A stretch of 64,000 nucleotides of DNA from Ferrimonas futtsuensis DSM 18154 (GTDB lineage: Bacteria > Pseudomonadota > Gammaproteobacteria > Enterobacterales > Shewanellaceae), in contig NZ_AUGL01000002.1 of assembly GCF_000422645.1 (NCBI RefSeq), forward strand, positions 248,001 through 312,000, written 5' to 3'. The position numbers and the translations under genes are program-made. Of this stretch, positions 35,210 to 43,022 are shown in pieces; the stretch's first letter is position 1; each line of letters opens with the position of its first letter. A model generated the notes under the pieces. It did no database searches, was not told the DNA's origin, and was given only the letters and a program-made list of their open reading frames with translations.

Positions 35210-35695
35210 ATGCCTGAGGCACAATACTGGCCTGAGGTGCTTGTGGCACTTCGGCGCATCATCCGGGCGACCGACCTGCAGTCTAAGAGGATGATCAAAG
35301 CCTGCGGGCTGACCATTCCCCAGGTGATGGTGCTCAGAGCCATCGATACCCTCGGGGATGTGACGGTGCGCCGTCTCTCTAATGACGTCTCACTGAGTCC
35401 GGCGACGGTCACCACCATCTTGAATCGTCTGCAGGACCGCGGACTGATTGAGCGGGTCCGCAGTCAGACCGACAAGCGTATCGTCAATGCCAGGCTGACC
35501 GAGGAGGGGAGCCGGGTTTTGGCATCGGCTCCGCCACTTCTGCATGAGAAGTTCATCGACCGGTTTGAGAATCTCAATGATTGGGAAAAGACCCAAATCC
35601 TCTCTTCCATGCAGCGAGTTGCCTACATGATGGACGCCGAGACTCTGGATGCGGCGCCTCTGCTGGATATCGCCTCACCGGATACAGTGAAGTAA
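35210..35695 (+). CDS. MarR-family regulator, CosR/EctR type
   Basis: 161 aa from the ATG at 35210 behind AGGAAG; a TTG-initiated extension from 35195 would cover the ribosome site. The winged helix is near residues 40-105 (TIPQVMVLRAIDTLGDVTVR, DVSLSPATVTTILNRL, GLIERVRSQTDKRIVNARLT). The C-terminus ILSSMQRVAYMMDAETLDAA is like the CosR/EctR group, which represses osmolyte synthesis and transport genes in Vibrio and methylotrophs. It lies next to porin and BCCT transporter genes whose promoters share a dyad, so it is the likely regulator of the osmolyte locus. Confidence 0.88.
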   Translation: MPEAQYWPEVLVALRRIIRATDLQSKRMIKACGLTIPQVMVLRAIDTLGDVTVRRLSNDVSLSPATVTTILNRLQDRGLIERVRSQTDKRIVNARLTEEGSRVLASAPPLLHEKFIDRFENLNDWEKTQILSSMQRVAYMMDAETLDAAPLLDIASPDTVK

Positions 35696-35710
35696 ACCAG
35701 GAACCCCATA

Positions 35711-35738
35711 AAAGGGCGGCGTAAGCCGCCCTTTTTTG
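35711..35738 (+). terminator. Terminator after the MarR-type regulator
   Basis: A 10-bp perfect stem (AAAGGGCGGC / GCCGCCCTTT) with a GTAA loop and a trailing T run. Confidence 0.93.
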
Positions 35739-35741
35739 TGT

Positions 35742-35772
35742 CTGAAATCAGCACAATGATTTGAGATCAAAT
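35742..35772. promoter_or_regulatory. Two candidate MarR operators upstream of the porin gene
   Basis: ATTTGAGATCAAAT (35759-35772) is a perfect 6-2-6 inverted repeat. A shorter one, CTGAAATCAG (35742-35751), lies 7 bases before it. The first matches the dyad in front of the BCCT gene (38783-38796). A further inverted repeat CGTTA/TAACG (35781-35795) sits downstream. Confidence 0.6.
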
Positions 35773-35876
35773 GATTGCTCCGTTAACATGTAACGTTGTT
35801 GCGTCCCGGCGGTTAAAGAAATGTGGTTCGGGGCGTCTGTTGGAACATTCACAAAAATCATTTAGGACGCGTTGTA

Positions 35877-37076
35877 ATGAAAACCAAACTGGCCATTGTC
35901 ATCGGTATGATTTTCTCCGCCGCGGCTGCAGCTCAAACCAGTGAAATCGAGGAGCTTAAGCAGCGAATCGACGAGTTGGAGAAGCGTCAGCAAGCGGTAG
36001 AGCAGGAAAAGGATGAGGGAGGCATTACCCTGGGTGGTGCGGCTCGATTCCAATATAGCTATGAAGATTATAGCGATGACAACAGCGACAGAGGCGGAGA
36101 CTTCGATTTTGATGTGTTCAGGTTGGATGCCAATGGCAAGATTGGCGACCTGACGCTGTCTGCTCAATACCGTTGGTACCAATATATGGATGTGCTGCAT
36201 CATGCCTGGGTTGGCTATGATTTCAGTGACAGCCACAGCGGTCAGATCGGTGTCACCCAGGTGCCTTTCGGCATCCTGCCCTACGCTTCTCACAGCTTCT
36301 TCTTCAGCTCAAACTTTTACACTGGCCTGGAAGATGACTATGACATGGGCCTGAATTATAAGTTTGAGTCCAAACGAAATCGATTGGATGTGGCGTTCTA
36401 CAAGAACGATGAGCAGGGCGGCATCGATGGCTATGTGTCTGAGCGCAGCGATCGTTACTCCTATGACGTGCTCGGCGTGCGCCTGGAGGGCGAGGGCACC
36501 TACGATGCGCCAAGCCTGGAGGTGGGGGAAACCAACACCTTCAACCTTCGCTACGCTCACACCCTGCAACTGGACGGCGGTTCGGTGGAACTGGGCCTGT
36601 CGGGCCAGTTTGGCGAGTTGGAGGTGGACGGCAACATGGATGGTGATCACTGGGCTGCGGCGGTGCACGGCGTCATCAACTATGGTGCCTGGAACGTTCA
36701 GCTTCAGGCGTCCGACTACGAATACGACATCGATGGCATGGAAGTGGAGCAGATGGTCGTCGGCGCTTATGCCTTTTACGATTCCATTCCCGCAGAAGCG
36801 ATCACCTACACCGCCAACATCGCTTACAGCCTGCCGGTGAAGATGGGCCCGGTGACCAACCTGACCTTCTACAACGATTACTCGCTGATGACCGACAAGC
36901 CGGGCGAGTTGGACGACACCTTCATGAACGTCACCGGTATGGCGATCAGTGCCGGGGCGCTCTACACCTACGTGGATTTTGTGGTTGCTGAGAATCAGCC
37001 CTTTATCGGCGGCACTCTGGTGGGCAGTGGTGACACCAACAAGCGGGTGAACATCAACTTCGGCTACTACTTCTAA
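35877..37076 (+). CDS. Outer-membrane porin-like beta-barrel protein
   Basis: 399 aa from the ATG at 35877; the signal peptide is MKTKLAIVIGMIFSAAAAAQ. A frame open upstream (from 35823) adds no signal-like sequence. A short coiled-coil trimerisation segment (EIEELKQRIDELEKRQQAVE) is followed by a Gly/Asp/Tyr-rich beta barrel that ends in a C-terminal Phe (NINFGYYF), as in trimeric porins. The coiled coil recalls OprP/phosphoselective-type porins. Lying between the CosR-like gene and a BCCT transporter, it may admit betaine- or choline-type osmolytes; the substrate is inferred only. Confidence 0.85.
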   Translation: MKTKLAIVIGMIFSAAAAAQTSEIEELKQRIDELEKRQQAVEQEKDEGGITLGGAARFQYSYEDYSDDNSDRGGDFDFDVFRLDANGKIGDLTLSAQYRWYQYMDVLHHAWVGYDFSDSHSGQIGVTQVPFGILPYASHSFFFSSNFYTGLEDDYDMGLNYKFESKRNRLDVAFYKNDEQGGIDGYVSERSDRYSYDVLGVRLEGEGTYDAPSLEVGETNTFNLRYAHTLQLDGGSVELGLSGQFGELEVDGNMDGDHWAAAVHGVINYGAWNVQLQASDYEYDIDGMEVEQMVVGAYAFYDSIPAEAITYTANIAYSLPVKMGPVTNLTFYNDYSLMTDKPGELDDTFMNVTGMAISAGALYTYVDFVVAENQPFIGGTLVGSGDTNKRVNINFGYYF

Positions 37077-37096
37077 GCCAGAGGTTCACAGCATCC

Positions 37097-37125
37097 AGCC
37101 CCGCCCATTGGCGGGGCTTTTTTTG
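37097..37125 (+). terminator. Terminator of the porin gene
   Basis: Stem AGCCCCGCC / GGCGGGGCT (37097-37105 / 37110-37118), CATT loop, then seven T. Confidence 0.93.
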
Positions 37126-37148
37126 TCTGGTGGTTGGTCTCGGGCCAA

Positions 37149-37174
37149 CAAAAAGGGGCGCCGCGGCGCCCCTT
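37149..37174 (-). terminator. Terminator of the BCCT transporter gene
   Basis: A 10-bp stem (AAGGGGCGCC / GGCGCCCCTT, 37153-37174) with a 2-base centre; the minus strand continues into U run and GTTGG. Confidence 0.8.
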
Positions 37175-37191
37175 GGAATCGGAATGTGAGG

Positions 37192-38766
37192 TTACCCTCT
37201 TGGCTCGGTCTTCATGCCTTTGACCAGGCTGACGCACATCATCAGCAGGATAAAGGTGAAGGGCAAAGCGGTGGAGATGGTGCCCGCCTGCAGGGCCTGA
37301 ATCGCTTCGGTGCCGCCGATCCACAGCAGGGTGGCTGCGATGGCGCCTTCGATGGTGGCCCAGAAGATGCGCTGAGGTACAGGGGCGTCCACCTTACCCC
37401 CGGCGGTGATGCTGTCGATCACCAGGGAGCCGGAGTCGGAAGAGGTGATGAAGAACACCATGATCAGCACGATGGAGATCACTGACAGGAAGGTGCTCCA
37501 GGGCAGGGCATCATAGGTGTAGAACAGCGCCAGGGTGATGTCCGACAGGCCATTGGTGCCCAGTTCGCCCACCTTGTTGACGATCTGGTCGATGGCGATA
37601 CCACCAAATACCGACATCCAGATGATGCATACCGCTGTGGGGATAAACATCACCGCAATCAGGAATTCACGCACGGTACGACCTTTGGACACCCGGGCGA
37701 TGAACATGCCAACAAAAGGAGACCAGGAGATCCACCAGGCCCAGTAGAACACGGTCCAGCCATGCATCCAGGCTTCATCTTCCCGCCCATGAGGGTTGCT
37801 CAGGGGGATCAGGTTCTCGGCGTAGCCCAGCAGGGTTTGTCCCAGATTGCCGAAGGCGACGGCGGCGCCCACCAGGGTCACAAACACCAGCAGGGCCAGA
37901 GCCACCAGCATGTTGACGTTACTCAGTACCTTGACGCCGCCCTCGATGCCGCGGACCACGGAGACCACCGCCAGGCCGGTGACAAAGGCGATGACGCCAA
38001 CCTGCATGCCGATGCCGCCTTCGGTGCCAAACACATGATTGATGCCGCTGGAGGCCTGTTGGGCACCCAGGCCCAGAGAGGTCGCCAGACCAAACAGGGT
38101 TGCCAGCACCGCCATAATGTCGATGGCGTGACCAAACCAACCCCAGGTCCGATCCCCCAGGATGGGGTAGAAGATGGAGCGGATCGACAGGGGCAGCCCC
38201 TTGTTGAAGGCGAAGAAGGCCAGGGACAGGGCGACCACGGCGTACATTGCCCAGGGGTGCAGGCCCCAGTGAAAAATGGTGGCGCCCATGGCGACCTTGA
38301 TCGCTTCAGGAGAGTTGGCTTCGACGCCAAGTGGCGTTTCATACCAGCCGGTGAAGTAGGCAACGGGCTCGGCAACACCCCAGAACATCAGGCCGATGCC
38401 CATGCCAGCGGCAAACAGCATCGCCATCCAGGACAGGTTGGAGTGTTCGGGACGGGCGTCGGCACCGCCGAGGCGGATGCGGCCGTAAGGGCTGACCACC
38501 AGCCATAAACAGAAAATCAGGAACAGGTTAGCCGACCACATAAAGAGGGCGTCGAAGTTGTTTATGATTTTCCACTTGATGCCGTCGAGGGCGGCTTTGG
38601 CGGTGGCGGCATCACTGATGAGGATGGCTGCCAGGAAAAGAAGAATCAGGCCGGCACTGATGCCGAATACAGGGTTATGGACATCAAACCCCCACTTCTG
38701 AATGTTGTCTTGACCAACGGTATAGTCCGTATTATCGATACTGTACTTATCTATGGGGTTACTCAT
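37192..38766 (-). CDS. BCCT-family betaine/choline/carnitine-type transporter
   Basis: 524 aa, about 12 membrane helices. The family signature is visible as WTVFYWAWWISWSPFVGMFI followed by ARVSKGRTVREF, and the Gly-rich helix as MLFAAGMGIGLMFWGVAEPV, close to the sodium-coupled betaine type. N- and C-terminal tails are short, so the long osmosensing tail of BetP is absent. It takes up compatible solutes such as glycine betaine or choline; exact substrate unknown. A CosR-like operator lies 17-30 bases before the start codon, placed for repression. The porin gene converges on it. Confidence 0.94.
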   Translation of the reverse strand: MSNPIDKYSIDNTDYTVGQDNIQKWGFDVHNPVFGISAGLILLFLAAILISDAATAKAALDGIKWKIINNFDALFMWSANLFLIFCLWLVVSPYGRIRLGGADARPEHSNLSWMAMLFAAGMGIGLMFWGVAEPVAYFTGWYETPLGVEANSPEAIKVAMGATIFHWGLHPWAMYAVVALSLAFFAFNKGLPLSIRSIFYPILGDRTWGWFGHAIDIMAVLATLFGLATSLGLGAQQASSGINHVFGTEGGIGMQVGVIAFVTGLAVVSVVRGIEGGVKVLSNVNMLVALALLVFVTLVGAAVAFGNLGQTLLGYAENLIPLSNPHGREDEAWMHGWTVFYWAWWISWSPFVGMFIARVSKGRTVREFLIAVMFIPTAVCIIWMSVFGGIAIDQIVNKVGELGTNGLSDITLALFYTYDALPWSTFLSVISIVLIMVFFITSSDSGSLVIDSITAGGKVDAPVPQRIFWATIEGAIAATLLWIGGTEAIQALQAGTISTALPFTFILLMMCVSLVKGMKTEPRG

Positions 38767-38782
38767 TAATCCTCTCTGTTAG

Positions 38783-38796
38783 ATTTGAAATCAAAC
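38783..38796. promoter_or_regulatory. Candidate MarR (CosR-like) operator before the BCCT gene
   Basis: ATTTGAAATCAAAC, a 5-2-5 perfect inverted repeat, differs from the porin site ATTTGAGATCAAAT at the centre and the last base only. It overlaps the region between promoter and start codon. Confidence 0.6.
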
Positions 38797-39180
38797 CAAT
38801 TGATGAGATGTTTTAGTTGTAATGCGGGACAATGCTAACAAAGTGTTAGGGTAGAGCTCAAATCGTCTGGCGACTTGAAATCTGCTTTCGAGCATGTTTT
38901 GGTGATAAAAACACCAGCGAGTTACGGTTTGAATATCATTAAGTTCATTAAAAACAGTTGCTTATGCTGTTTTTGGCGTCGAGTGGGCCGAAAGGGAAAA
39001 TGCAACGAGCTGTAGTGAAAATAAAATGACATCTATTGGGCAAAAGTGCATTCAAGTCTAAATATTAACCGCTCAATGCTTATAGCTGAAATTAATTGTT
39101 CAGGTTTCAGAGTTTGGCGTAGCCGGCTAAATGGCTACGCCAGTTGTTTGGATCCTAACAAGCTAAGGGGGGATGGCCGA
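38797..39180. other. Long AT-rich intergenic region with several dyads between BCCT and ablB
   Basis: No ORF is supported here. Dyads: CTAACA/TGTTAG (38835-38849, 3-base centre), TGGTG/CACCA around 38900-38916, AAAAACAG/CTGTTTTT (38950-38957 / 38967-38974), and a 10-bp stem TGGCGTAGCC/GGCTACGCCA (39115-39142) just past the ablB stop that may end the abl operon, although its U run is poor. The left part contains the BCCT promoter. Confidence 0.5.
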
Positions 39181-40047
39181 TCATCTCAAGGCCTTATACC
39201 AGACGTTCATGGTTTCTATATGTCCGCTTATCTGGGTATTGTTGGTCAGGCGCCCCGCCAGTTGATATCTCTGACGGGCAAAGGTGCGGTTCATGCCGAC
39301 TGAGTATGCCCTGGCAATGGTATAAGCCACTCGATAGCCCTCAGAAGAGACTTCCTGCTCCATCTGCCGCAGCAGTAGGCTGGCCAGTCCCTGGCCTCTG
39401 GCTGCCGGGCTGGTGGCAAAATCGGTCATCTCAACAGTCATTGAACCGGGGGATTTCTCTGCGGCGGCCAGGGCCATCAGTTCCCCCTGTTGTTCGATGC
39501 AGAAGTAGTCCACATCCTCCTCCATGCTTTGCTGCAGGACATCGGGCTGATCGATGGCAAAGGGGTAACTGGGAAATACCTGCCGATAGAGTTGGGCCAT
39601 TGCGTCCACGTCTTGAGGCCGGCAGCGACGCACCCCGGAACCGCTGTCAGGGGTGTGCACCGGAGCCAGGTTGTGCCTGGCCAGCTGAAGCACCTTGTGC
39701 AATTGGTGCGTCTGGGCCTCCTTGGCGCGCTGGGGATCAGGATAGAGTCCCAGAAACAGGGCATCGCACTCTGGATAGAAGCCGGGAATTCGAGCCTCGA
39801 CGCGAAACCCATGAGATAGGAATCGACCGGCACGGTGCTCCGGGACTTTCGCAAAGAGCTTGCCATAACCGTGCTCTCTGGCCAGTGACTGCATCTGGAT
39901 GATCAAGCGTGCAGGATCTGCCTCTTTGAGATCCATCAAGTAGATGCGGTTGTTGTTCGGACCATGTTGAATCTGTGCGCCCTCCAAGGAGGTAAGGATG
40001 TCGTAGGGGCTCTGATCCTGAGTGTTAGGGGCGAGTGAGTCAGTCAT
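39181..40047 (-). CDS. ablB: Beta-lysine N6-acetyltransferase
   Basis: 288 aa GNAT enzyme that acetylates beta-lysine to N-epsilon-acetyl-beta-lysine, an osmolyte first known from methanogens. The N-terminal half is AblB-specific (IYLMDLKEADPARLIIQMQS, REHGYGKLFAKVPEHRAGRF); the GNAT acetyl-CoA loop is ATSPAARGQGLASLLLRQME near residue 230. The start overlaps the symporter end by 8 bases, tying it to the ablA operon. The combination with a lysine 2,3-aminomutase makes the assignment strong. Confidence 0.92.
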   Translation of the reverse strand: MTDSLAPNTQDQSPYDILTSLEGAQIQHGPNNNRIYLMDLKEADPARLIIQMQSLAREHGYGKLFAKVPEHRAGRFLSHGFRVEARIPGFYPECDALFLGLYPDPQRAKEAQTHQLHKVLQLARHNLAPVHTPDSGSGVRRCRPQDVDAMAQLYRQVFPSYPFAIDQPDVLQQSMEEDVDYFCIEQQGELMALAAAEKSPGSMTVEMTDFATSPAARGQGLASLLLRQMEQEVSSEGYRVAYTIARAYSVGMNRTFARQRYQLAGRLTNNTQISGHIETMNVWYKALR

Positions 40048-41488
40048 GGAGCTCCTTTTGCGAGTGGGAAGTGGAGAAAATACAGTTCATCATATGGGCG
40101 ATACCCATGGCGCAGGCGGATGCTGTTAGGCCAAATACGCCCGCATCCAGGCCGCTTGCCTGAATCAACTCGGGCACCGGCAGGGGGGGCCACATCAGCC
40201 AGAGTGAGGTGATGCAGCCTGTCAGCATGGAGGCCAGGGCCGTGCCCTGACTTACTCTGGGCCAAAACAGGCAGGCCAGGGTTGGCATTACCAACCCTGA
40301 TATCATTAGGGTGTAGGCCATCAGTATGGCGGAAAGAACCGATTCAGCCCTGGCGGCCAGGATGATGGCGATCACACCCAGTATCAGAGTGGCCAGCATC
40401 GAGTAGCGGACGGTGTACCGGTCATTGTCACGCAGACCCATCAAGTCATTAAGCAGGTTGCCAGAGCAGGCCATCAGGCAGCTGTCAGCGGTAGACATGA
40501 TGGCGGAAAAGTAGGCGGCAACCACCAGGCCCGTGACGCCCACGGGAAGCAGATCCCGAATCATGGCCGGGACCGCGCTCTCTGCGTCCATCTCAGGCAG
40601 GAGTACCCTTGCACACATCCCCAGCAGCACACCACTGAATGCCATCACCGGGTACTCCAGCAAGCCGGCCATAAACCAGGCACGCTTTGCCGTTGCATCG
40701 TCCCGGCATGCGTAGATACGTTGATACAGGGTCATGGCAACAAACCAGATGGGGGTAATGGTTACCATCCAGTTGATCAGCGTTATGCCACTGATGCTGC
40801 TTAGGCTGAAGAAGTGCTCAGGCAGGGTTGCATTCAGGCCTGACCAACCCCCTACCTGACTCCAGGCCATGGGCAGAGCAAGGCAGAGCAGCCCCAGCAG
40901 CAGCACCAGCCATTGGATGCTGTCGGTCATGATCACCGCTTTCAGTCCGCCAAACGCGGTGTATAGGATGGTGGTGCCGCCGATGATCCACAGGGCCAGG
41001 GTCAGGGGGCTGTCAAACGACAGTGAGTCGGGAATCAGTGTGACAGAGGCCAACTTGGCTCCTGCCAGCAACTGGGCGGAGGTAAAGCCCAGATAACCAA
41101 CTCCTGAGATGAGCGCGGCGATCATCGCAACCCTAGGGCCAAAATGGTGGCGCAGCAGATCCGGATAGGTAAACAGGTTTTGGGTTTGGTCCCGTCGTTT
41201 TACTTTGGGGATCAGCAGCACCGCCGTGAGCCAGGCTCCCAGCAGACCGGTAAACAGCAGCCAGCTGGCGGAAAGACCCATGGTGAATCCCAGACCCGCA
41301 AGACCAATGGAGAATCCGCCCCCTACGTCGGTGGCGGCAATGGAGAAACCCACATGCTTGGCAGGCAGGTTCCTGCCCGCCAGATAGTAATCCTCTCCCC
41401 CACGGTGGCGACGGTAGTAGTACAGGCCGACCGCCAGCAATGCCATCAGGTAGCCGAAAAACAGCAGGTAATCGATGGTGTGCATCAT
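40040..41488 (-). CDS. Sodium:solute symporter family protein inside the abl operon
   Basis: 482 aa, about 13 membrane helices; it starts MMHTIDYLLFFGYLMALLAV. SSS-family features include YYLAGRNLPAKHVGFSIAAT and FGGLKAVIMTDSIQWLVLL. It begins 6 bases after the ablA stop and overlaps ablB by 8, so it is translated as part of the operon. Substrate is not evident: lysine, beta-lysine or N-acetyl-beta-lysine uptake are natural candidates from context. Sequence is not clearly of the PutP, PanF or ActP subgroup. Confidence 0.88.
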   Translation of the reverse strand: MMHTIDYLLFFGYLMALLAVGLYYYRRHRGGEDYYLAGRNLPAKHVGFSIAATDVGGGFSIGLAGLGFTMGLSASWLLFTGLLGAWLTAVLLIPKVKRRDQTQNLFTYPDLLRHHFGPRVAMIAALISGVGYLGFTSAQLLAGAKLASVTLIPDSLSFDSPLTLALWIIGGTTILYTAFGGLKAVIMTDSIQWLVLLLGLLCLALPMAWSQVGGWSGLNATLPEHFFSLSSISGITLINWMVTITPIWFVAMTLYQRIYACRDDATAKRAWFMAGLLEYPVMAFSGVLLGMCARVLLPEMDAESAVPAMIRDLLPVGVTGLVVAAYFSAIMSTADSCLMACSGNLLNDLMGLRDNDRYTVRYSMLATLILGVIAIILAARAESVLSAILMAYTLMISGLVMPTLACLFWPRVSQGTALASMLTGCITSLWLMWPPLPVPELIQASGLDAGVFGLTASACAMGIAHMMNCIFSTSHSQKELHD

Positions 41489-41494
41489 CAGTCT

Positions 41495-42700
41495 CTACAG
41501 CAGGTAGGAGACATCAGCGGTGCGGCCTTCGAAGTTGGTGGCGACCAGTCGAGTTTGCTCACCATGGTGTTCTTTACGGACATAGTCAGGCTGTACCGGC
41601 ATTTTGCCCAGGCCACCAACGCCGTCGACGATAAAGGTGGGAATTGCCGGGCCAGACACCCAACCACGAATGCCGTGATAGATCTCCAGCATCCGATCAT
41701 AGCTGACTTGGAACTTGCTGTTCCCAGGAGCGGGATCCATAGAGTAGACGTAATAGGGGCGGATACCATTGGACACCAGGTCCATCACCAGATCCCGCAT
41801 CACTTCAACATCGTCGTTGACCCCCTTCATCAGCACACTTTGGTTGCCCAGCATGATACCGGCACGTCGCAACAGGCTGACGCGCTCCTGGAACAGAGGG
41901 GTAATCTCCTTCGGATGGTTGACCTGGGTATTGATCAGGGTGACGCGATTTTTCACCAGTACCTTGCACAGCTCAGGGGTTACCCGGGTGGGCAGCTGTG
42001 CCAGCATGCGGCTGCCGATGCGCAAAATCTTCAGATCCGGCCTGGCCTCGCGGATCATCGACAGAATCTGGCCCAACTTGTCGTCGGTGAGAAGCAAAGG
42101 GTCGCCACCAGAGAGCAGTACATCCTGCACTTCGGGATGGTCACGCAAATACTCTACGGACTTACGAATGCGATCCATGGAGATGACATTCAGTGGGTCG
42201 GAAACCATACGTTTTCGGGTGCAGTGTCGGCAGTAGGCGCCGCAGATGTTGTGCACCAGAAACAGCACCCGATTGGGGTAGCGGTGCACGATGGAGGTGC
42301 CCTCCGGCATCATGTCGTCTTCTGACAGCTGGTCACCCATTTCGTGAGGGGCCACCTCCAGCTCATCCTGCTCCGGCACATACTGGATGCGGATGGGACA
42401 CTCAGGGTCATGTTCATCCATCAGTTGCGCGATGTAGGGCGTTACCCTGGCAGCGATTACCTTGTAAACCTCCCGATCTACCGGGCGAACCTTTTGCAAA
42501 ACCTTGGCCAAGTCCCTGTCGGTTTTAAAGGACTTGGCCAAGGTTTCACGCCATGGGTGGGCGGCGACATCAAAGTTCATCAGTTCGCTGCGGCTGGCGA
42601 AATGGTGAGGGGTGGAGGGGTTAATCAGGGTAAGAGGGATGGTGCGTTTCGAGGGGGCTGAGACCCGTTTCTCAGCGGTACTGGTTGACATGTCAAACAT
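41495..42700 (-). CDS. ablA: Lysine 2,3-aminomutase
   Basis: Radical SAM, PLP-dependent enzyme that converts L-lysine to beta-lysine. 401 aa. The [4Fe-4S]-binding CxxxCxxC is CGAYCRHCTRKR; the SAM-binding glycines follow in VLLSGGDPLLLTDDKL; the PLP Lys region is in the C-terminal part (PTFIVDGVGGLGKMP). Starts at the first ATG (42700) or at the fourth residue. It is the full-length KamA/AblA kind, not the short EpmB that modifies EF-P. First gene of ablA-SSS-ablB. Confidence 0.95.
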   Translation of the reverse strand: MFDMSTSTAEKRVSAPSKRTIPLTLINPSTPHHFASRSELMNFDVAAHPWRETLAKSFKTDRDLAKVLQKVRPVDREVYKVIAARVTPYIAQLMDEHDPECPIRIQYVPEQDELEVAPHEMGDQLSEDDMMPEGTSIVHRYPNRVLFLVHNICGAYCRHCTRKRMVSDPLNVISMDRIRKSVEYLRDHPEVQDVLLSGGDPLLLTDDKLGQILSMIREARPDLKILRIGSRMLAQLPTRVTPELCKVLVKNRVTLINTQVNHPKEITPLFQERVSLLRRAGIMLGNQSVLMKGVNDDVEVMRDLVMDLVSNGIRPYYVYSMDPAPGNSKFQVSYDRMLEIYHGIRGWVSGPAIPTFIVDGVGGLGKMPVQPDYVRKEHHGEQTRLVATNFEGRTADVSYLL

Positions 42701-42724
42701 CCGTTTATTGGTAATTGGTTAGTG

Positions 42725-42734
42725 ATGAAATCAT
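42725..42734. promoter_or_regulatory. Shorter version of the osmolyte-locus dyad before ablA
   Basis: ATGAAATCAT, a 4-2-4 inverted repeat, shares the core TGAAATCA with the BCCT and porin sites. Its centre is about 29 bases before the ablA start, a distance close to that at the BCCT gene. Confidence 0.4.
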
Positions 42735-43022
42735 TCGTTCTCTAATTAAAATAACGGCTATTACCGACAATTTCAATGGTCCATATGAATGCCAACAAAG
42801 ATGGTGGTGTCTAAGCATCTGTTTTTATGGCGTAAATTTTGACTTGATAAATTAAGGTGTCATGATGTAACGAACGCTTAACGGAGTTTGGCAAGGTAAA
42901 TGTTTGATCATAAGTTTGATGCCAAACGTTTGGCGAGGGGTTGGAAAGGGGGTTTTGTTAGATGTCATTTGAATTGTGCCCCCCCGGAATGAGCAACTTT
43001 TCGAGGGGCCTATTTCAGTTGA
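42735..43022. other. AT-rich intergenic region with a perfect 14-bp palindrome
   Basis: No gene is supported between ablA and the next upstream gene. GCCAAACGTTTGGC (42921-42934) is a perfect palindrome; another TTTGGC copy lies at about 42889. It is about 220 bases upstream of ablA and about 90 bases past the end of the 43023-43781 gene. It could be an upstream operator for ablA; it lacks a U run and is not a terminator. Confidence 0.45.

Follow-up and report, generated by a model that had tools for sequence, protein, structure and literature searches.

A putative CosR-type box before the porin-like and ablA genes of Ferrimonas futtsuensis

Acetyl-beta-lysine protects cells against salt and is known above all from methanogenic microbes. 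In Methanosarcina mazei ablA-ablB is salt-dependent (PMC1224877, a review; here and below, statements on cited papers refer to excerpts of them). Among bacterial regulators of osmolyte genes, the MarR-type CosR of Vibrio parahaemolyticus and V. cholerae acts on synthesis and uptake genes including BCCT and proVWX (PMC7876524, PMC8070244), and the V. parahaemolyticus CosR consensus is quoted as TTTGA-NN-TCTAA (PMC8070244). EctR1 of Methylomicrobium alcaliphilum is a MarR-type repressor of an osmolyte operon that binds over the -10 element (PMC5924519), and PA3458 of Pseudomonas aeruginosa is a MarR-type repressor that adjoins and controls an osmolyte operon and has a partly palindromic site (PMC8070244). 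We analysed a 64-kb stretch of the Ferrimonas futtsuensis DSM 18154 genome (4.30 Mb), positions 248001-312000 of contig C2, called the window in the following. It holds a MarR-family regulator gene together with a porin-like gene, a BCCT gene and abl genes, and an earlier note had proposed that this regulator governs all three units through a 14-base dyad. We are fairly confident that the regulator is a CosR-type repressor with a recognizable box and with ablA and the porin gene as targets, and less so for the BCCT gene. Protein-DNA binding and salt control are what we infer from the sequences. The central genes are the following.

35210..35695, forward strand: CosR/EctR-type MarR-family regulator, 161 amino acids (aa); Pfam MarR PF01047, 55.7 bits
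35877..37076, forward strand: outer-membrane porin-like protein, 399 aa
41495..42700, reverse strand: ablA, lysine 2,3-aminomutase; best family TIGR03820, 332.6 bits

The regulator has the MarR winged-helix domain and the length of about 160 aa of the CosR/EctR type, BCCT and abl genes lie in the same window, osmolyte genes are found beside its relatives, and the boxes in the target promoters resemble TTTGA-NN-TCTAA. It had no NCBIfam equivalog above its cut-off. Its C-terminus reads MMDAxxLDAAPxL, a motif common to most relatives, and it is 98% identical to its Ferrimonas sediminicola counterpart. AblA misses the curated cut-off of TIGR03820 (525.4 bits), although this is its best family; it aligns to the lysine 2,3-aminomutase 2a5h at 3.3e-83 and keeps D293, D330, R134 and K337, which we take to include the lysine-binding aspartates and the pyridoxal-phosphate lysine.

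The box was defined by a de novo search for palindromic motifs trained only on ablA upstream sequences of the family. The 12 ablA genomes are those matching ablA at 1e-120 or better among 116 family genomes, and nine of the 12 upstreams were used for training because the remaining three closely resemble a fourth. The search revealed the motif TMRTTMGMRYKCKAAYKA of 18 base pairs (bp), which extends the 14-mer of the earlier note and resembles the V. parahaemolyticus CosR consensus; its log-likelihood was 98.8 versus 41.8 (standard deviation 3.2, maximum 52.8) in 20 dinucleotide shuffles, with 200 search starts for the data and 60 for the shuffles. The full palindrome measures 18-20 bp with the core RTTNG-N4-CNAAY, so that the 14-mer, although recurrent and above shuffles, is only its centre: allowing at most two mismatches, the 14-mer matched seven times in the window (two places being counted on both strands) versus a mean of 1.22 and a maximum of 5 in 100 shuffles. 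Exact copies of the core TTTGANATCAAA occur at four places in the genome, namely at the porin gene, at the BCCT gene, upstream of a GntR-type gene and in the gap that separates an oxidoreductase-like gene from a chemotaxis-receptor-like one (these neighbouring genes assigned by eye).

Only two positions of the window score at least 12 with the weighted model, and these are the first two boxes listed here.

42731..42748, reverse strand: putative main ablA operator box TAATTAGAGAACGAATGA; score 17.8 in training, 14.1 with its own and the G021 ablA left out
35757..35774, forward strand: putative porin operator box TGATTTGAGATCAAATGA; held-out score 15.7
42716..42733, reverse strand: putative secondary ablA box; score 11.2, overlapping ATGAAATCAT; the equivalent in genome G021 scores 10.4

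Across 399,660 sampled positions of the same genome, nine score at least 8, one at least 11 (a position of 12.9 within a reading frame) and none at least 13, so that the box is rare in this sample of the genome. A model built from seven upstreams, without the window's own and the G021 ablA, still gave 13.0 for the porin box as well as 14.0 and 13.0 for two boxes before a proX gene elsewhere in the genome, and its background maximum of 12.6 lies under the ablA, porin and proX boxes.

The dyads reported earlier are all present: ATTTGAGATCAAAT at 35759-35772, ATTTGAAATCAAAC at 38783-38796, ATGAAATCAT at 42725-42734 and CTGAAATCAG at 35742-35751. Their standing as sites differs. The porin box is kept in 5/5 Ferrimonas genomes compared, at -116 to -120 and with scores of 15.7-19.7. 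The shorter second porin dyad CTGAAATCAG is altered in the other four of these porin upstreams and sits just 3' of the terminator stem of the regulator gene, and we no longer regard it as a site. At ablA the reported dyad ATGAAATCAT falls on the secondary box, whereas the main box adjoins it. In a scan with promoter consensus sequences, the promoter predicted at 35761-35789 has its -35 covered by the porin box, and for the one predicted at 42776-42748 the final base of the -10 is also the first of the main ablA box; each of these promoters is weak alone because eight promoter-like sites were found versus 5.1 expected.

The same box accompanies regulators of this kind in other orders. Alignment-based scanning of named genomes gave 419 regulator relatives, of which the best 80 were taken and four same-family loci left out. 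In 42 of the resulting 76 loci the best match of the ablA-trained model flanked the regulator gene, versus 3.5 expected, the loci not being independent because many are from Marinomonas and near kin; 200 column-permuted models gave a mean of 4.2 and a maximum of 26, and none reached 42. Family models identified as neighbours the synthesis genes of N-acetylglutaminylglutamine amide (NAGGN) in Sedimenticola, proX in Neptunomonas and Marinomonas, ectA and ectB in Gayadomonas, and PutP in Paraglaciecola. A box precedes proX in Marinomonas, and in one Marinomonas the best match, far from the regulator, precedes ectA. An annotated V. nigripulchritudo plasmid combines ectABC and proVWX with a regulator of this kind, and its proV is preceded by a box of 14.5. 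For the porin and ablA genes the CosR/EctR-type reading of the earlier note is thus supported by a box that fits the CosR consensus, flanks regulator relatives and precedes ectoine and betaine genes.

The link to abl, which the earlier note had drawn for this regulator type, recurs wherever a close ablA was found in the family: in all 12 such genomes a strong CosR relative lies 311-9170 bp from the gene; by hand count, 83/116 family genomes have such a relative. A search for ablA at 1e-120 in 369 genomes of the class found the own genome alone, and searches with the AblB family found more: across 375 genomes of the order, AblB scored above the cut-off in five genomes of one other family. Three of the five have ablA (78-80% identical), each with an upstream box (20.6, 17.9 and 21.9). 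The three ablA stretches contain no regulator match at 1e-8; in G682 and G664 the regulator lies on another contig and is 71% identical to that of the Ferrimonas genome G015. Two loci with ablB and no ablA match have no box of at least 11 (L326 none of at least 9; L327 10.3 and 10.8). A third family yielded two genomes, both with the order regulator-ablA-ablB; AblB is above the cut-off in G287 and just under it in G141, the regulator is 37-39% identical to that of the window and the aminomutase about 32%.

A tree of 45 regulators (L294 left out, no characterised CosR or EctR1 sequence included, bootstrap not fully settled) placed the window regulator beside Vibrio and Shewanella relatives in a clade of 17 with Oceanospirillales and Sedimenticola (100/99). 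The other Ferrimonas and most Shewanella-type regulators form a separate clade (100/98), and both clades accompany ablA promoters with the same box. The regulator was likely swapped for a distant cousin within Ferrimonas while the operators were kept. On balance we favour a wider view, in which CosR-type regulators would serve as a plug-in switch for any gammaproteobacterial osmolyte module: abl would have been wired in across three families through a similar box, even without an adjacent cosR, and in Ferrimonas the regulator would have been replaced by an approximately 50% identical cousin of the Oceanospirillales/Sedimenticola clade with the abl boxes kept.

Beyond the window, a proX operon on contig C3 carries the two boxes mentioned above, with scores of 16.0 and 13.8 in the full model (L293 6728-6745 and 7048-7065), at -392 and -72. 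Its first gene encodes an OpuAC domain; after it come frames that by eye resemble proW and proV. This proX-led betaine-type operon extends the predicted regulon, which was therefore not correctly delimited as three units: the porin and ablA genes stand, the BCCT gene is less sure and the proX operon joins them.

Several findings weigh against this reading or parts of it. As a loose pattern the palindrome is not enriched over its backward control, with 168 versus 298 places in the own genome at one mismatch and fewer exact places than the control in nine of 12 relatives; the weighted model was therefore relied on. In 34 of the 76 loci the best match lies away from the regulator, and the Vibrio relative L298 has no box of at least 7 beside its regulator. 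No box precedes the window's own regulator gene, where the best score is 3.5. In the third family the dyads before the regulator are weak (9.3 and 10.1), and G736 of the other family (85% complete) has no CosR relative at 1e-15. The remaining points concern the BCCT gene and a second MarR gene, and each favours an explanation of its own.

37192..38766, reverse strand: BCCT transporter of glycine-betaine type; PF02028, 586.8 bits; best NCBIfam NF047988, 512.8, under the cut-off of 650
38781..38798, reverse strand: putative BCCT box 1, which holds the dyad of the earlier note; score 8.4, 14 bases before the ATG
38848..38865, reverse strand: putative BCCT box 2; score 7.4, near -99

One alternative restricts the regulon to ablA, porin and proX and takes the BCCT dyads as chance or decayed sites; we hold it to be unlikely. 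Both scores are no higher than the extremes of the background, with its nine places of at least 8 in 400 kb, and the scores show no conservation of box 1: in the four close orthologs compared, its position (near -32) gave 2.2, 0.7, -5.1 and -5.1, although a dyad with changed bases is kept in two of them. One of the four scores 6.6 at best. However, the two sites lie about 70 bp apart, three of these close orthologs reach 15.0, 14.6 and 12.8, and the position of box 2 gave 15.0, 12.8, 12.8 and -4.5. The BCCT dyad of the earlier note is a weak box, and of the two positions the second is the stronger in three of the orthologs. More widely, ortholog upstreams were scored at 30 BCCT and 30 porin loci, returned out of 40 and 49 genomes with matches, the cosR-less genomes among them being assigned by hand from the table of CosR relatives. 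A box of at least 11 was found upstream of 19/49 BCCT or porin orthologs with a CosR relative versus 0/11 without one (Fisher 0.012, uncorrected for relatedness), while 30/49 in cosR-bearing genomes lack such a box. Membership of the BCCT gene in the regulon is likely, less sure than that of porin and ablA.

Some MarR proteins may activate from a -35 position. A predicted -35 lies under the porin box, and activation is suggested for two targets of PA3458 (PMC8070244), so that the regulator might activate instead of repress, or respond to a signal other than salt. We consider this improbable: the literature describes CosR, EctR and PA3458 as repressing osmolyte genes (PMC7876524, PMC5924519, PMC8070244), and the ablA box lies at the end of the -10 that faces the start site.

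Another member of the MarR family, resembling SlyA or OhrR, might bind the box and the neighbouring regulator be incidental, given that MarR operators share a TTNG...CNAA core. A SlyA site TTAGCAAGCTAA is quoted in PMC8070244, and two Ferrimonas genomes carry another MarR gene, judged OhrR-like by eye, whose immediate upstream region holds sites of 19.7 and 14.3 or of 19.4 and 13.3 (L294 758 and 814; L295 1204 and 1261). These are probably the gene's own operator, built on the shared MarR core, and because of them the model cannot be called CosR-specific. Box presence nevertheless tracks CosR-type genes across orders, and none of the 11 BCCT and porin orthologs in cosR-less genomes carries the box, which leaves this explanation quite improbable for the window. 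That the dyads are chance AT-rich palindromes, as the unenriched loose pattern would allow, is hardly credible in view of the held-out, background and cross-family tests.

A CosR-type repressor thus remains the preferred reading, and it suggests the following scheme. The MarR gene product would be a CosR/EctR-type repressor whose dimer binds the 18-bp palindrome at the -35 of the porin gene and at the end of the -10 of ablA, and also binds at two boxes each upstream of the BCCT gene and of the proX-led operon. At low salt the bound repressor would block polymerase; repression at low salt is our best guess because CosR, EctR and PA3458 are described as repressors. At high salt it would release, and betaine uptake, the outer-membrane pore and N-acetyl-beta-lysine synthesis (ablA, symporter, ablB) would rise together.

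The remaining features of the locus are listed here.

35710..35735, forward strand: terminator-like stem in the gap between regulator gene and porin unit; 11-pair stem with T tail
39181..40047, reverse strand: ablB, beta-lysine N-acetyltransferase; TIGR03827, 301.2 bits, cut-off 205.1
40040..41488, reverse strand: sodium/solute symporter between ablB and ablA; PF00474, 145.4 bits

The symporter had no NCBIfam equivalog above its cut-off, and the abl loci of the other family (L328-L330) gave no match to it apart from a short partial one in L329. In G025 (L056), a close relative whose regulator is identical, abl genes are absent from the interval between BCCT and the gene that follows. Autoregulation of the window regulator was considered and rejected as a supported possibility, its best upstream score being only 3.5. 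The porin-like protein itself had no Pfam or NCBIfam match at 1e-3; a Pseudoalteromonas homolog 51% identical to it matches Porin_O_P PF07396 (23.0 bits, cut-off 20.9). A structure model of low confidence (predicted local distance difference test score 52) gave Foldseek matches mostly to porins, with template-modelling scores of 0.28-0.38, and a profile search of the PDB returned no porin. Five Pseudoalteromonas loci (L250, L252, L253, L257, L258) have a porin homolog (50-53% identical in the matched part) directly after a CosR relative, as in the window. Further boxes were seen as twins about 115 bp apart with no obvious target in F. kyonanensis and F. sediminum (L294 6806/6921, L295 7197/7314), among short open reading frames near the end of contig C7 (14.8, L296 5179), and between clpX-like and lon-like genes (by eye) on contig C11 (13.4, L156 1501-1518), both contigs being of the own genome; the 18-mer of the C11 site also occurs in G021 and G025.

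The locus offers a candidate regulator and operator for bacterial acetyl-beta-lysine synthesis and connects an outer-membrane porin with osmolyte control, its box model predicts regulon members in other genomes, and it is likely a natural example of a regulator exchanged for a distant cousin with the operators kept. In the excerpts of the literature searched (including PMC7876524, PMC5924519, PMC10992012 and PMC8070244) no abl-MarR link was found, an earlier mention in the primary CosR or EctR1 papers being possible; those of PMC1224877 and PMC5112694 cover acetyl-beta-lysine and MarR without linking them, and none of the papers searched names ablB as well as CosR. Compared with the described systems, the abl and porin genes are most likely new targets of CosR-type repression: the targets named for CosR are ectABC-asp, betIBA-proXWV, bccT3 and proVWX, with neither abl nor a porin among them in the excerpts (PMC7876524, PMC8070244). 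EctR1, likened here by description, has ectABC-ask and its own gene as targets (PMC5924519), whereas no box was found before the gene of the window regulator. PA3458, also compared by description, differs in its target, the NAGGN operon, and in its motif TTHGNASDSRAARDA (PMC8070244). With the abl operon of methanogenic archaea the window shares ablA-ablB and differs by the symporter gene between the two, and abl is what looks like a new target pathway of a CosR-type regulon.

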